In this document: positions 8,085 to 32,033 of the stretch, one piece after another | How positions within the stretch are numbered: position 1 is the first letter of the stretch | Layout: every line of letters starts with the position of its first letter | Assembly: GCA_945861965.1 (NCBI GenBank) | Contig: CAMAWM010000001.1 | Coordinates: forward strand, 1 to 43,564 | Source: Chitinophaga pinensis | GTDB taxonomy: Bacteria; Bacteroidota; Bacteroidia; UKL13-3 | Direction: 5' to 3' | Length of the DNA: 43,564 nucleotides | Program-made: the position numbers and the translations under genes | The notes under the pieces: generated by a model | Seen by the model: only the letters and a program-made list of their open reading frames with translations | Databases searched by the model: none | What the model was told of the DNA's origin: nothing

Positions 8085-11000
8085 ATGAATAAATTTTACA
8101 CAAACAATCAAACTAACAAGTCATTTACTTTTGTATGGCTGCTAGCAATTTTGCTAAACGTATTATTATTTAGCAATGGAGCAAAAGCTCAAATTTCTTC
8201 TATGGTTTACAGCTCGTCAAATCCAGTTGCTTACAGCACATTGGTTATTTCGGCCGGAACTCAAGTTAACAACACATCGACTGACGATGATGATGTGTAT
8301 GCAGTTCAAAACATTGGTTTCAATTTTGGATATTGTGGAAACACATTTACCACAGTTGGTATTGCTGCCAATGGATATTTGAAACTTGGTGGTGTTAGTT
8401 CAAATTATTATTCTGCTGCTCCATCAAACCAAGCAAACACCATTTCTGCATTCAACAACGATTTGCAAGGTGCTGGTTTGACAAACAGTAAAATTAGAAT
8501 TCAAACCATTGGTTCTGCTCCAAGCAGAGTGTGTGTAATACAATTTAGCGATTGGTCGTATTATCCATATTCAACAAGTGTGCTTTTCAATTTTCAAATC
8601 CGTTTAAGTGAAATTGACGGTCAAGTGCAAATAGTTTACGGACCTGTTACACCTTATAGTTATACTTTATCGGTTGGAGTTTCAGGAAGTACTACGGCTG
8701 ATCGTAATATGTTATCAAGTTCAACAACATGGGCAAGTCCTTCGGTTTTAACTACAGGCACAGGAACCATGACATTGTCAAATACAGTTTATCCTGATTC
8801 GGGCAGAACGTATACTTGGGGAAATCCTCCAATGGTTATTGATTCGGTTTCAACTGTTCAAGCATTGGGAAATGCATTGTTAGGTGCTTCAAACCAAGCA
8901 GCAATTGCTGCAGTTTGGTACACACGCGGTGCTACAAACCCTAAAACTATGTCGCAAATTATATTTAATACAAGCGGTACAACAAACGTTGCTGATTTAA
9001 CTGCAGCACGAGTTCTTTATACTGGAAGCAATCCTAACTTTACGATGGCTGCAGTGATAAGACAATTTGGTTCTGACATAACATCGCCAAGTGGCTCACT
9101 TACTTTTAATGGATTGGATACCCTAGCTTCGGGTCCTAACTATTATTGGTTGGTATATGATATAACTACAAACGTAAATGCATTAGGTCGCCTAATTGAT
9201 GGTACTTGTACCAGCGTTACAGATTCTGCTGCTCGTACTCCAAACATTACATCGCCAGCAGGTAACCGTGTCATTATTCAACCAATGGGCGGGGTTTATA
9301 CAATTAATCCTGTAGGTACAGGTCCTTTAAACTTTACCACATTTGCTGCTGCAATTACTGCATTAGGAAATGGAGTAGTTTCTGCGGTTACATTTAACGT
9401 AGCAGCTGCTACTTATAACGAGCAAGTTGTTATCCCAAGTACAATTCCTGGTGTATCACATATTAATACAATAACATTTGATGGAGGAAACGGAAATGCC
9501 GCTACACGTATTATTACTGGTGGTTCAGGTGGTGCTGGTCCTACAAGTTCGGCTTCGTTCTTAATCAATGGAGCAAGATATATTAGAGTTAGAAATTTAA
9601 CCATTAACAATAACAGTTCAGCAGCAGTTGGTTTTGCAATCGTTGGTTCTTCAGCAAGTTACAACGGAAGTAACAACAGTCTTTCTCGTTGTATTATAAA
9701 TATTCCTGTACAAAGCGGAACTGCTTCAACTGGGTATTTAATTTCTGTTACAGCTTCAGCTGGTGGATACGGTGTAAGTGCAATGGGTGCTGATAGTACA
9801 GTAATTGATAGCAACGTAGCTACAGGTGGTGGTTACGGAATTGTACATTACGGTATGACAAACGGAGCTTATAACCGCGGTATCAGAATTCGTGGAAACA
9901 CAATTACTACAAACTACATGGGCGGATATGTTGCCTACAATTTTGGTCAGTTTGAAGTAAAGAATAATACATTCAATATGGGTGCTGGATATGGATATTA
10001 TGGATTGTATTTTTATTACAACCAAAATAGCAGCACTTCAATCCCAACACAAATAATAGGAAACACATGGAATAATTTTGGTGGATATGGAATGTATTGC
10101 TACTATCCTTCAGCAGCAACATCTACCGCTCCATTAGAAGTATATAACAATATGTGGTGGGCAGGTGCAGGTTCATCGTATCCTGGATATTATGGTTTGT
10201 ATTTATACCAACCAGCAGGTGCCATTTCATTGGTATATCACAATACCTGGTACATGGGCGGAGCAGGAACTTCAACTACCTATTGCGGAATGTATAATAA
10301 TGGATCAAGCAGTACCTTTATTAAAAATAATATTTTTAGTGTAGGTGCAGGTTCGGCTACTCCACTTTATTGTGCAACAAGTCCAACAGGTAATATTGTA
10401 AACTACAATAATTACTACAACTGGACAAATATTACAACTGGAAACTTGTTGTATAGAGGTACATTTTACACTCCATCAACATACAAAACAGCTACTGCAG
10501 GTGGAGACTCATCGTTTAACGTAGCGCCAAGTTATGTTAACAGAGTTATTCCTACAGTTAATCTTCACCTTCTGGACAATTGTAATCCTAAAGGAGTTGA
10601 CTTAACAGCGATAGTTCCTTTGGATATTGATAACCAAACCCGTTCCGTTACTCCAAATGTTGGTGCAGACGAAGCAGGTAGTTTCAGTTTGGATGTTATG
10701 CCTCAGTTTGTGGTTAGCCCAGTGGCTCCAATTGTTACAGGCGCACAAGATTTAATCATTAAAATAAAAAATGTTGGAACTACACAGCTTACAGCTTTCA
10801 ATATTTCATACCGACATAATTTAGGAACTCCGGTTTCTCAAACTTGGTTTGGTACTTTAGATGCTTGCGATACCACTTCAGTAATATTTACAGGTTCGCA
10901 ACAAATTACATTAGTGGGTACCAACCAAATTAAAATTTATACCGATGCTCCTAATTTCAGTTCGGATGCAAACGTTTCAAACGATACAATAAATGTATCC

Positions 11001-29942: not shown

Positions 29943-29966
29943 TTCTGAAAGAGTTTTAAGTGATTT

Positions 29967-30061
29967 TTATTTTAGAATAGTCCGAGCTATCACTATTTTT
30001 TGAATTTCGCTAGTCACTTTGCCAATTGTACAAAGTTTTGAATCGCGATAAAATTTTTCAA
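29967..30061 (-). pseudogene. Stranded 3'-end fragment of an acyl-CoA dehydrogenase gene
   Basis: About 79 of 95 positions match 30891-30985, the 3' end of the intact acyl-CoA dehydrogenase gene, in the same orientation and at a constant offset of 924 bases with no indels. On the minus strand it still encodes about 30 residues of the C terminus in frame with the same TAA stop ([13 protein letters not shown], then KVTSEIQKI, then the final ILK). The catalytic-base motif GEGTSE has become GKVTSE. Similarity stops abruptly at 30061 and an in-frame TAA follows upstream of it. It is too short to be a gene: it is a leftover of an insertion or of a lost tandem paralogue. Confidence 0.85.
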
Positions 30062-30086
30062 GTTAAATTAATTTCCCCCTTTTTCT

Positions 30087-30094
30087 TACTTTTG
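30087..30094 (+). promoter_or_regulatory. Candidate -7 box of the nucleotidyltransferase cassette
   Basis: TACTTTTG matches TAnnTTTG fully and lies 11 bases before ATG 30106, giving an almost leaderless transcript. No good -33 TTG is visible. It lies just inside the left repeat boundary, so the cassette seems to carry its own promoter. Confidence 0.35.
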
Positions 30095-30105
30095 AATAAG
30101 TTAAA

Positions 30106-30342
30106 ATGGAAAACGAAGAAGAAAAAAATAAAGTAAATGAAGACGCGTTTCTATATAAAAGGGAAATCCGTTTTTTTAACTCGTTTGAAGAGCAGGCAGA
30201 ATATGAATTATTTGAAATGGCGAAGCTTACACCAATAGAACGGCTTATGCAGATGCGGAAATTTATTAACATAGCCTATGCAATGCACGGGTACAATCCT
30301 TCCAAATTGCCGTCAAAACATAAGATAAAAATAATAACATGA
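30106..30342 (+). CDS. Small helical protein paired with a nucleotidyltransferase
   Basis: This 78-residue charged protein is acidic at the start and strongly basic at the end (KHKIKII). It is predicted helical, with the segments FNSFEEQAEYELFEMAKL and TPIERLMQMRKFINIAYAM. Its TGA stop overlaps the ATG of the nucleotidyltransferase gene (ATGA), so the two are translationally coupled. I recognise no named family; it has no HEPN motif and no helix-turn-helix that I can identify. By position it resembles the first gene of a two-gene toxin-antitoxin module, or a dedicated partner or adaptor of the enzyme. It is flanked by the duplicated acyl-CoA dehydrogenase end. Confidence 0.75.
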   Translation: MENEEEKNKVNEDAFLYKREIRFFNSFEEQAEYELFEMAKLTPIERLMQMRKFINIAYAMHGYNPSKLPSKHKIKIIT

Positions 30343-30812
30343 ATGTTTTCGATTCTTACACTCACGAATTGCTTTTAACCCTTAATAAAGAACAAGTCGA
30401 GTATCTTGTTGTTGGCGGATATGCAGTAAATTATCATGGATACAGACGTACCACCGGAGATATTGACCTTTGGATAAAACCTGAGAATGGCGAAAATAAG
30501 GAAAGGATTTTAAGGAGTTTACATCGTTTAAAAGTTTCGGAAAGTAAATTGAAACAATTAAAAGCATTAGATTTCACAAAGCATGTTGTTTTTATTGATG
30601 GTGAAGAGCCATTTAAAATTGATTTTATGACACAGGTTTCGGGCGTTAATTTTGATGATGCATGGAAACAAAAAATTATAGCCAATATTGATGATTTAAA
30701 TATTCCCTTTTTACATTTATCCGATTTAATTGTTTCGAAAATAACAACTGGACGTAATAAAGATAAAATAGATATTGAAGAACTTCAAAAGATACAAATG
30801 CGCAAAAAATAA
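30339..30812 (+). CDS. Nucleotidyltransferase-fold protein (AbiEii/DUF6036-like)
   Basis: This 157-residue protein has the minimal nucleotidyltransferase core. The motif VVGGYAVNYHGYRRTTGDIDLWI gives the GG(x)...DxD site, with Asp at about residues 41 and 43. A second acidic strand is FKIDFM (about 93-98). The C-terminal helix contains LSDLIVSKITTGRNKDKIDIEEL, typical of the small AbiEii/DUF6036-like enzymes. Related proteins are toxins of type IV toxin-antitoxin pairs, antitoxins of MNT-HEPN pairs, or enzymes of unknown function. Catalytic residues are intact. With the preceding 78-residue gene it forms a two-gene cassette lying between direct repeats of a gene end. A role in defence or stasis is a guess from family and context. 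Confidence 0.82.
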   Translation: MNVFDSYTHELLLTLNKEQVEYLVVGGYAVNYHGYRRTTGDIDLWIKPENGENKERILRSLHRLKVSESKLKQLKALDFTKHVVFIDGEEPFKIDFMTQVSGVNFDDAWKQKIIANIDDLNIPFLHLSDLIVSKITTGRNKDKIDIEELQKIQMRKK

Positions 30813-30890
30813 TTTGCCGCAATCGTTTAAAGTCTTAGTTCTAAATTAAATTCTTATAGGTGCCTAACATAGCAAAGGTATTTGACAAAT

Positions 30891-30985
30891 TTATTTTAGA
30901 ATCTCTCTCGATATTACTATTTTTTGTATTTCGCTAGTTCCTTCACCAATGGTACAAAGTTTTGAATCGCGATAATATTTTTCGA
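30891..30985 (-). repeat. Right copy of the direct repeat flanking the nucleotidyltransferase cassette
   Basis: This is the functional copy: it is the native 3' end of the acyl-CoA dehydrogenase gene, including its stop. The mutated copy is at 29967-30061, same orientation, 924 bases away. Together they bracket 30062-30890. Confidence 0.85.
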
Positions 30986-32033
30986 CCGGAAAATCTTTTG
31001 TGTAACCATATCCACCAAAAATTTGAACTGCTTCGGTGCTTGCCCACACACACACTTCGCTTGCATAATATTTTGCCATTGCACTTTCTTTAGTCATTGG
31101 CAATCCGCGCATTTTCAAATCTATTGCCTGCATAGTTAGTAATTCTGCTGCCTCAATTCGCATCGCCATATCTGCCAGTTTAAAAGCAATTGCCTGGAAA
31201 TTTGAAATTGGCTGTCCAAATTGTTGTCTTTCTTTTGAGTATTTTAACGAAGCTTGATATGCGCCTTTTGCAATTCCTAAAGCCAATGAAGCAATTGAAA
31301 TTCTTCCGCCATCCAACACTTTCATTGATTGCTTAAATCCTTCTCCAATATTTCCCAAAATATTTTCGTTTGGAATTCGGCAATCTTCAAAAATCATTTC
31401 TGCAGTCTCGCTTGCGCGCATTCCTAATTTATTTTCTTTTTTGCCTCCGCTAAAACCTTTTATTCCTCTTTCAATTACAAACGCAGTTATACCATTTGAA
31501 TCTAAAGGCTCACCCGTTCTTGCCAAAACAACGGCTACATCGCTACTTATTCCGTGAGTTATCCAGTTTTTTGTGCCGTTTAATATCCAATCGTTTCCAT
31601 CTTTTTTTGCAACACATTGCATTCGCATTGCATCGCTTCCTGTATTGGCTTCGGTCAATCCCCATGCTCCAATCCATTCGCCTGTTGCAAGTTTGGGCAA
31701 CCATTTTTTCTTTTGCTCTTCGTTGCCAAATTGCAAAATATGTCCCGAACAAAGTGAGTTATGTGCAGCCATGCTAAGCCCAATTGAGCCGCAAACTTTT
31801 GACAACTCTTGAATTGCTGTCGAGTATTCAAAATAACCAAAACCAGCGCCACCGTATTCTTCAGGAATTAAAACGCCTAATAATCCAAGTTTGCCCATTT
31901 CACTAAACATTTCGCGTGGAAAATGTTGTGATTCGTCCCATTCCATTACAAAAGGTCTTATATTTTTTTCTGAAAAATCGCGCACCGTTTGCGCTACAAT
32001 TTTTTGATTTTCTGTCAACTCAAAACTCAGCAT
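30891..32033 (-). CDS. Acyl-CoA dehydrogenase
   Basis: This 380-residue flavoenzyme catalyses alpha,beta-dehydrogenation of an acyl-CoA. The full domain set is present: an N-terminal helical domain, a middle beta domain with [12 protein letters not shown] (FAD/substrate contacts) and [13 protein letters not shown], and a C-terminal helical domain with [30 protein letters not shown] and the catalytic-base motif GEGTSEIQ with Glu364. Length is standard. It could act in short- or branched-chain acyl-CoA degradation, which would fit the 2-oxoacid E1 dehydrogenase at 24491, but the substrate is not determined. Its last 95 bases are duplicated at 29967-30061 on the far side of the nucleotidyltransferase cassette. 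It starts 47 bases after the helix-hairpin-helix gene. Confidence 0.94.

Follow-up and report, generated by a model that had tools for sequence, protein, structure and literature searches.

The two genes that occupy positions 30,106 to 30,812 of the window (the whole 43,564-nucleotide stretch of DNA analysed here) probably constitute a mobile two-gene toxin-antitoxin module that, by analogy, would work much as MenAT1 does and would employ an antitoxin of an undescribed family. The computed support for this reading comprises the conserved pairing of the two genes, their joint inheritance, the retention of catalytic residues, a MenT1 fold, natural fusions of the two proteins, and the insertion of the pair as a bare unit in a close relative. 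Toxicity, a tRNA target, binding between the two proteins and inhibition by blockage of the active site are proposed by analogy with MenT1 and MenA1.

The two genes and their resemblance to MenAT1

Both open reading frames are intact and lie on the forward strand, in an assembly of 2.1 Mb in 61 contigs that is 96% complete. The upstream gene (30,106 to 30,342) encodes a protein of 78 residues, likely an antitoxin or inhibitor by its likeness to MenA1, and the downstream gene (30,339 to 30,812) a nucleotidyltransferase of 157 residues that is the corresponding candidate toxin. The small protein carries the core FEEQ..(11)..LTPIERL, is recovered with its own profile HMM family, and matched nothing in Pfam, NCBIfam or PADLOC; searches of 35 members of the small family against the same three libraries returned chance-level matches only, with neither HEPN nor any other Pfam family at E < 0.02. 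The nucleotidyltransferase was assigned to DUF6036 (E = 7e-11) and DUF2204 (E = 1.4e-7), two domains on which our literature search found no paper, and retains G26-G27, T39, the DxD pair D41 and D43, K134 and D145, with D95 as a candidate third carboxylate.

These results bear out most of what a sequence-only reading had said of the pair: the 78-residue partner has no AbiEi match in the Pfam, NCBIfam and PADLOC scans, it lacks the Rx4-6H motif of HEPN proteins, the enzyme keeps its GG...DxD site, and the genes share a 4-nucleotide ATGA overlap (30,339 to 30,342, forward strand). Its argument from a private -7 box fared less well. Although the box, TACTTTTG, is present at 30,087 to 30,094 of the forward strand, the window contains TANNTTTG 83 times where chance alone predicts 78 ± 9, and no TTG-type -33 element was seen upstream of TACTTTTG; the box therefore provides no evidence for a private promoter or for an obligate pair.

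The structure model of the nucleotidyltransferase (pLDDT 94) found its best solved match in MenT1, whether alone or in complex with its antitoxin (Foldseek E about 1e-5), and superposed on it with a Z of 13.5 over 142 residues at 3.2 Å. A profile of the enzyme family searched against the PDB likewise placed MenT1 first (E = 5e-7). MenT1 is a toxin that modifies tRNA by adding CMP to tRNA 3' ends, and its residues T39, D41, K137 and D152 have been probed for toxicity by alanine substitution (PMC10435456). These four residues align with T39, D41, K134 and D145 of the enzyme studied here and are invariant in 29 homologues. Among the other structures compared, TM1012 scored a Z of 13.0, the antibiotic-modifying enzymes ANT(2'') and LnuA about 10, and MenT3 about 9. 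The only somewhat weaker likeness to LnuA and ANT(2'') counts against the toxin-antitoxin reading and, together with a weak Pfam match to aminoglycoside-2''-adenylyltransferase (E = 0.06), could indicate an antibiotic-modifying enzyme of their kind with an accessory protein. We regard that interpretation as very improbable, given the better score of MenT1 and a recurrent placement of the pair beside cas9 that does not fit it; moreover, neither LnuA nor ANT(2'') is known to depend on a small obligate partner.

MenA1, the antitoxin of MenT1, is a 68-residue, two-helix protein without a DNA-binding domain that is encoded upstream of MenT1 and blocks its active site. The model of the 78-residue protein likewise consists of two helices (residues 27-39 and 43-59) with loose ends, at a pTM of only 0.49, so no claim on its fold is made beyond a hairpin. 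A fold search with this model gave no match, and MenA1 was not among the PDB chains matched by the profile of the small family, the proteins being very short. The pair thus resembles MenAT1 (Rv0078B-Rv0078A) in joining a small, non-DNA-binding, two-helix upstream protein to a minimal nucleotidyltransferase of the same fold with the same four functional residues. It differs in that the enzyme matches DUF6036/DUF2204 in Pfam and not DUF1814, the domain that defines MenT, and in that no sequence similarity between the small protein and MenA1 could be detected. We do not file the pair as a member of MenAT, although it would be MenAT1-like in its working. The present family also differs from MenAT1 in being far more widely spread, in the long dual-coding overlap of most members, and in the Cas9 fusions of some relatives.

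Type IV AbiE systems (AbiEi/AbiEii) and MenAT3/4 also employ a nucleotidyltransferase toxin of the same superfamily, but their winged-helix antitoxin of the AbiEi/COG5340 type is missing here and both proteins of the window's pair are much smaller; the PADLOC AbiEii profile matched the enzyme at 0.006 over 57 residues only. Closer in outline are the type VII HEPN-MNT systems (HepT/MntA), in which a minimal polymerase-beta nucleotidyltransferase is likewise paired with a small helical protein. On that model the roles would be reversed, the small protein acting as the toxin and the nucleotidyltransferase as an antitoxin that nucleotidylates it, an arrangement proven elsewhere for MntA/HepT (PMC7641770). 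We consider this quite unlikely for the present pair. The small protein is not a HEPN protein by motif or family match and is predicted to have two helices rather than four, and the nearest structures of the enzyme are MenT toxins. The conserved YW pair of most family members is missing from the window's small protein, which consequently offers no invariant tyrosine to be modified. Gene order points in the same direction: the MNT gene is almost always first in MNT-HEPN (PMC3710099), while at the present locus, as in 144 of 179 loci, the small gene precedes the enzyme gene.

Under the preferred toxin-antitoxin reading, the small protein would be made first, from the upstream overlapping gene, and its helical hairpin would bind the nucleotidyltransferase and cover the active site. 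If the supply of small protein failed, the enzyme, which is of the DNA-polymerase-beta type, would be freed and, if it acts as MenT1 does, would add nucleotides to tRNA 3' ends and so stop translation.

Conservation and coupling of the pair

A scan of 84,980 species genomes returned at least 561 relatives. In the best 80 of these, all named loci and the ones examined, the partner was recognised by profile in 79 (in three or four of them weakly); in the 80th (L115) a diverged copy of the small protein ends a Cas9. Among the best 80 are loci from Bacteroidota, Ignavibacteria, Verrucomicrobia, Planctomycetes, Acidobacteria, several proteobacterial groups, Spirochaetes, Armatimonadetes, Fibrobacteres, Elusimicrobia, Nitrospirota, Oscillochloris (Chloroflexota), a Rubrobacteraceae and a Woesearchaeote. 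The first small-protein profile gave 74 matches in 9,351 open reading frames of these loci, nearly all of them adjoining the nucleotidyltransferase, and an independent Bacteroidia set contained a partner-like open reading frame upstream of the enzyme gene in 30 of 30 loci. The sequence-only reading had proposed a co-occurrence check and had reasoned that the pair would be no system if the enzyme occurred widely without the small protein, or if the latter proved to be part of an unrelated conserved gene. Neither was found: in the close family the enzyme nearly always adjoins the small protein, and the latter does not belong to any unrelated conserved gene.

Across 179 loci, a small-ORF profile detected the partner adjacent upstream in 144, downstream in five and within the same open reading frame in four, leaving 26 loci without a recognised partner, mostly those of distant nucleotidyltransferases. 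Family-wide, the small partner has 60-80 residues, is a predicted helical hairpin and matches no known family. Some more distant groups of the enzyme lack a partner, such as six loci of a single genus outside the window's class (L073, L075, L077, L081, L084 and L086, genus g54), where a related nucleotidyltransferase stands without a recognisable one. A reversed order, with a partner-like small gene after the nucleotidyltransferase, is clear in L059, L161 and L097 and weak in L094 and L100. On a Fibrella plasmid (L047), the gene for a 635-residue DUF6036 protein adjoins an AbiEi/AbiEii pair and is preceded by a small gene of another kind.

The two proteins share a common history. Distances between small proteins and between nucleotidyltransferases, computed from non-overlapping regions of both, correlated with a Mantel r of 0.67 (n = 120), compared with a highest value of 0.14 in 2000 shuffles. 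The coupling extends to the coding sequence itself. In 73 loci the two genes overlap in different frames by roughly 50-60 nucleotides, so that common DNA encodes the tail of the small protein, RLQRVYxIIKR, and the first helix of the enzyme, DFKEFIxLLN. Relative to the usage of the gene itself, third codon positions of the nucleotidyltransferase within the long overlap deviate strongly for D (Z = -8.0), F (-10.4), K (+5.4), E (-7.0) and N (-8.9). While the bias in F and N codons can be explained by avoidance of stops in the other frame, that in D, K and E codons indicates selection on the residues of the small protein. No such bias was detected in 53 short-overlap loci, all values of which lie within |Z| 1.9; the window's pair, with its 4-nucleotide overlap, is of this short-overlap kind. 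A dual-coding overlap means that the two genes are locked together. The window's genome also holds a second, diverged pair of the long-overlap kind (L002, positions 1326-1929, G000:C12), between a phosphoribosylformylglycinamidine-synthase-like gene and a tatC-like gene, both named by eye.

In three Saprospiria homologues (L133, L157 and L169), the small protein and the nucleotidyltransferase are naturally joined in one open reading frame, with the catalytic residues kept. Such fusions are odd for a releasable antitoxin and would also fit a regulatory or substrate-presenting subunit. Another apparent fusion (L151) was set aside, its middle segment being out-of-family.

Mobility of the pair

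Homologues of the nucleotidyltransferase were found in 71 of 296 sampled genomes of the phylum, in up to four copies and with a patchy distribution, and plasmid copies adjoin type I restriction-modification (R-M), VapC and AbiE genes. A search of phage records and viral contigs for the enzyme gave no match. The patchiness, the company of type I R-M and AbiE genes on plasmids, and the mobility described below are traits of toxin-antitoxin systems and count in favour of that reading.

In the window, the pair is flanked by direct repeats of 94 nucleotides, 84% identical, which the sequence-only reading had not mentioned. The right copy (30,890 to 30,983) corresponds to the 3' end of an acyl-CoA dehydrogenase gene that is intact and lies on the reverse strand (30,891 to 32,033), and the left copy (29,966 to 30,059) is a degenerate version of the same end, read on the minus strand. 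The segment between them (30,060 to 30,889), about 830 bp with only the two genes, is the inferred inserted unit, and the dehydrogenase gene, with orthologues in 61 of 62 genomes of the family, is the apparent target of insertion. In none of 29 inspected loci of relatives does the pair lie beside this gene. No clean empty site at the window's own locus could be read in the family genomes, among which no other genome of its genus appeared, because this gene has different neighbours in each genus.

A clean comparison was provided by L035, a locus from the window's family whose nucleotidyltransferase is 62% identical. Here two copies of a sequence of 108-114 nucleotides stand with about 910 bp between them, comprising only the two genes of the pair, and in L224, from the same genus as L035, the flanks are joined at a single copy of that sequence, as expected of an empty site. 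The flanking repeats and this empty site together indicate that the bare module inserts with a long target duplication, and no transposase is part of the inserted unit. An empty site could also arise through deletion by recombination between the repeats, but the repeats themselves require a prior insertion. The pattern extends to other members of the family. When 500 nucleotides on each side of the pair were compared, long flanking repeats (E < 1e-10) were detected in 28 of 132 pair loci and in 3 of 408 segments drawn at random from these loci; the count includes a few places represented by two loci, as well as some dispersed kinds of repeat. At least seven loci (L001, L035, L154, L187, L126, L162 and L006) have one repeat copy that forms the end of a neighbouring gene, itself intact. 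Two further candidates, L071 (G132) and L069 (G124), were not counted as clean target duplications, since they lie in local arrays of imperfect repeats with many nearby copies in the contig, and L156 and L072 may be dispersed repeats.

Insertion with a long target duplication has been described for R-M systems by Nobusato 2000 and Furuta 2010, as cited in PMC3874152 and PMC3031569. The two cases are alike in involving a bare selfish module, variable direct repeats roughly 100 bp long and a relative with an empty site; they differ in that a nucleotidyltransferase pair here takes the place of R-M genes and the repeats often consist of a neighbouring gene's 3' end.

Cas9 fusions in relatives

In six type II CRISPR loci, the small-partner domain forms the in-frame C-terminus of the Cas9 open reading frame and the nucleotidyltransferase gene follows directly. 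These are L113 (Pedobacter mendelii), L115 (Saprospiraceae UBA3362), L116, L244 (G091), L255 (G591) and L286 (G400). The nucleotidyltransferase gene is situated between cas9 and cas1 in all six; cas2 accompanies them in L113, L244 and L286, and four of the loci (L113, L115, L244 and L255) contain CRISPR-like arrays. NCBIfam named Cas9 at 1e-116 to 1e-129 in the three proteins tested, as well as Cas1 and Cas2 of L113. An ordinary Cas9 of the window's family (L287) ends just past ...IKLNVDRLGN, whereas the fusions extend some 75-110 residues further. A single clade of the six fusion-locus nucleotidyltransferases was rejected (AU p = 9e-5): that of L113 groups with a free-standing copy, and those of L116 and L286/L265 group with another, which implies that capture occurred at least twice. 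The window's genome yielded no Cas9. In L287 (G349:C430, complement of about 2600-2950), cas9 is immediately followed by a free-standing small partner, and no nucleotidyltransferase was found adjoining this partner, which is perhaps an antitoxin left behind after loss of the toxin. In L255, a gene that by eye resembles a REP-associated transposase (9433-10065) lies between the nucleotidyltransferase and cas1.

The natural fusions of the small protein, both to the nucleotidyltransferase and to Cas9, could also be those of an adaptor, which would present a substrate or tether the enzyme to an RNA or protein machine without inhibiting it and, on Cas9, would recruit the enzyme to the guide RNA or the site of cleavage. 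Such a role seems unlikely to us, as the mobility and the patchy, free-standing spread of the pair point to an addiction-like element, and the closest analogue in function, MenA1, acts by inhibition.

If the toxin-antitoxin reading applies to these loci as well, an antitoxin domain is attached to Cas9 in some Bacteroidota, and Cas9 itself would restrain the toxin. This leads to a broader proposal, which we advance tentatively and consider possible rather than probable: an undescribed class of protein toxin-antitoxin systems would have been captured repeatedly by type II CRISPR-Cas, with the C-terminus of Cas9 as the antitoxin and the nucleotidyltransferase as a tRNA-modifying toxin that would be released if Cas9 were lost, degraded or blocked. 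The fused form might then serve as a protein-based guard of CRISPR immunity, and the pair in the window would represent its free-standing, mobile source form. The guard function is suggested by analogy with CreTA, an RNA toxin-antitoxin that guards CRISPR-Cas and is coupled to it via the guide RNA and Cascade of type I (PMC9458426, PMC10097628). The likeness lies in the coupling of a toxic module to a CRISPR effector, and it concerns relatives of the window's pair and not the pair itself; unlike CreTA, the module is made of protein and its putative antitoxin is fused to a type II Cas9. In the open-licence literature, we found no paper describing a fusion of a nucleotidyltransferase or an antitoxin to Cas9, and the term nucleotidyltransferase is absent from the two papers closest to the subject.

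Taken as a claim about a distinct minimal toxin-antitoxin or defence family, the sequence-only reading stands in part: the pair does belong to a distinct and widely conserved two-component family, while toxicity, inhibition and defence are suggested by similarity to MenT1/MenA1. The family offers a clear case outside R-M systems of a selfish pair whose two genes move by themselves, with a long target duplication. If the toxin-antitoxin reading is true, it would represent a large, taxonomically broad class of nucleotidyltransferase toxin-antitoxin systems with a new small-antitoxin family unnamed in current libraries, and would extend the MenAT1 kind well beyond mycobacteria. The repeated fusion to Cas9 further predicts that some Cas9 proteins carry an antitoxin, and that loss of Cas9 would release the toxin.
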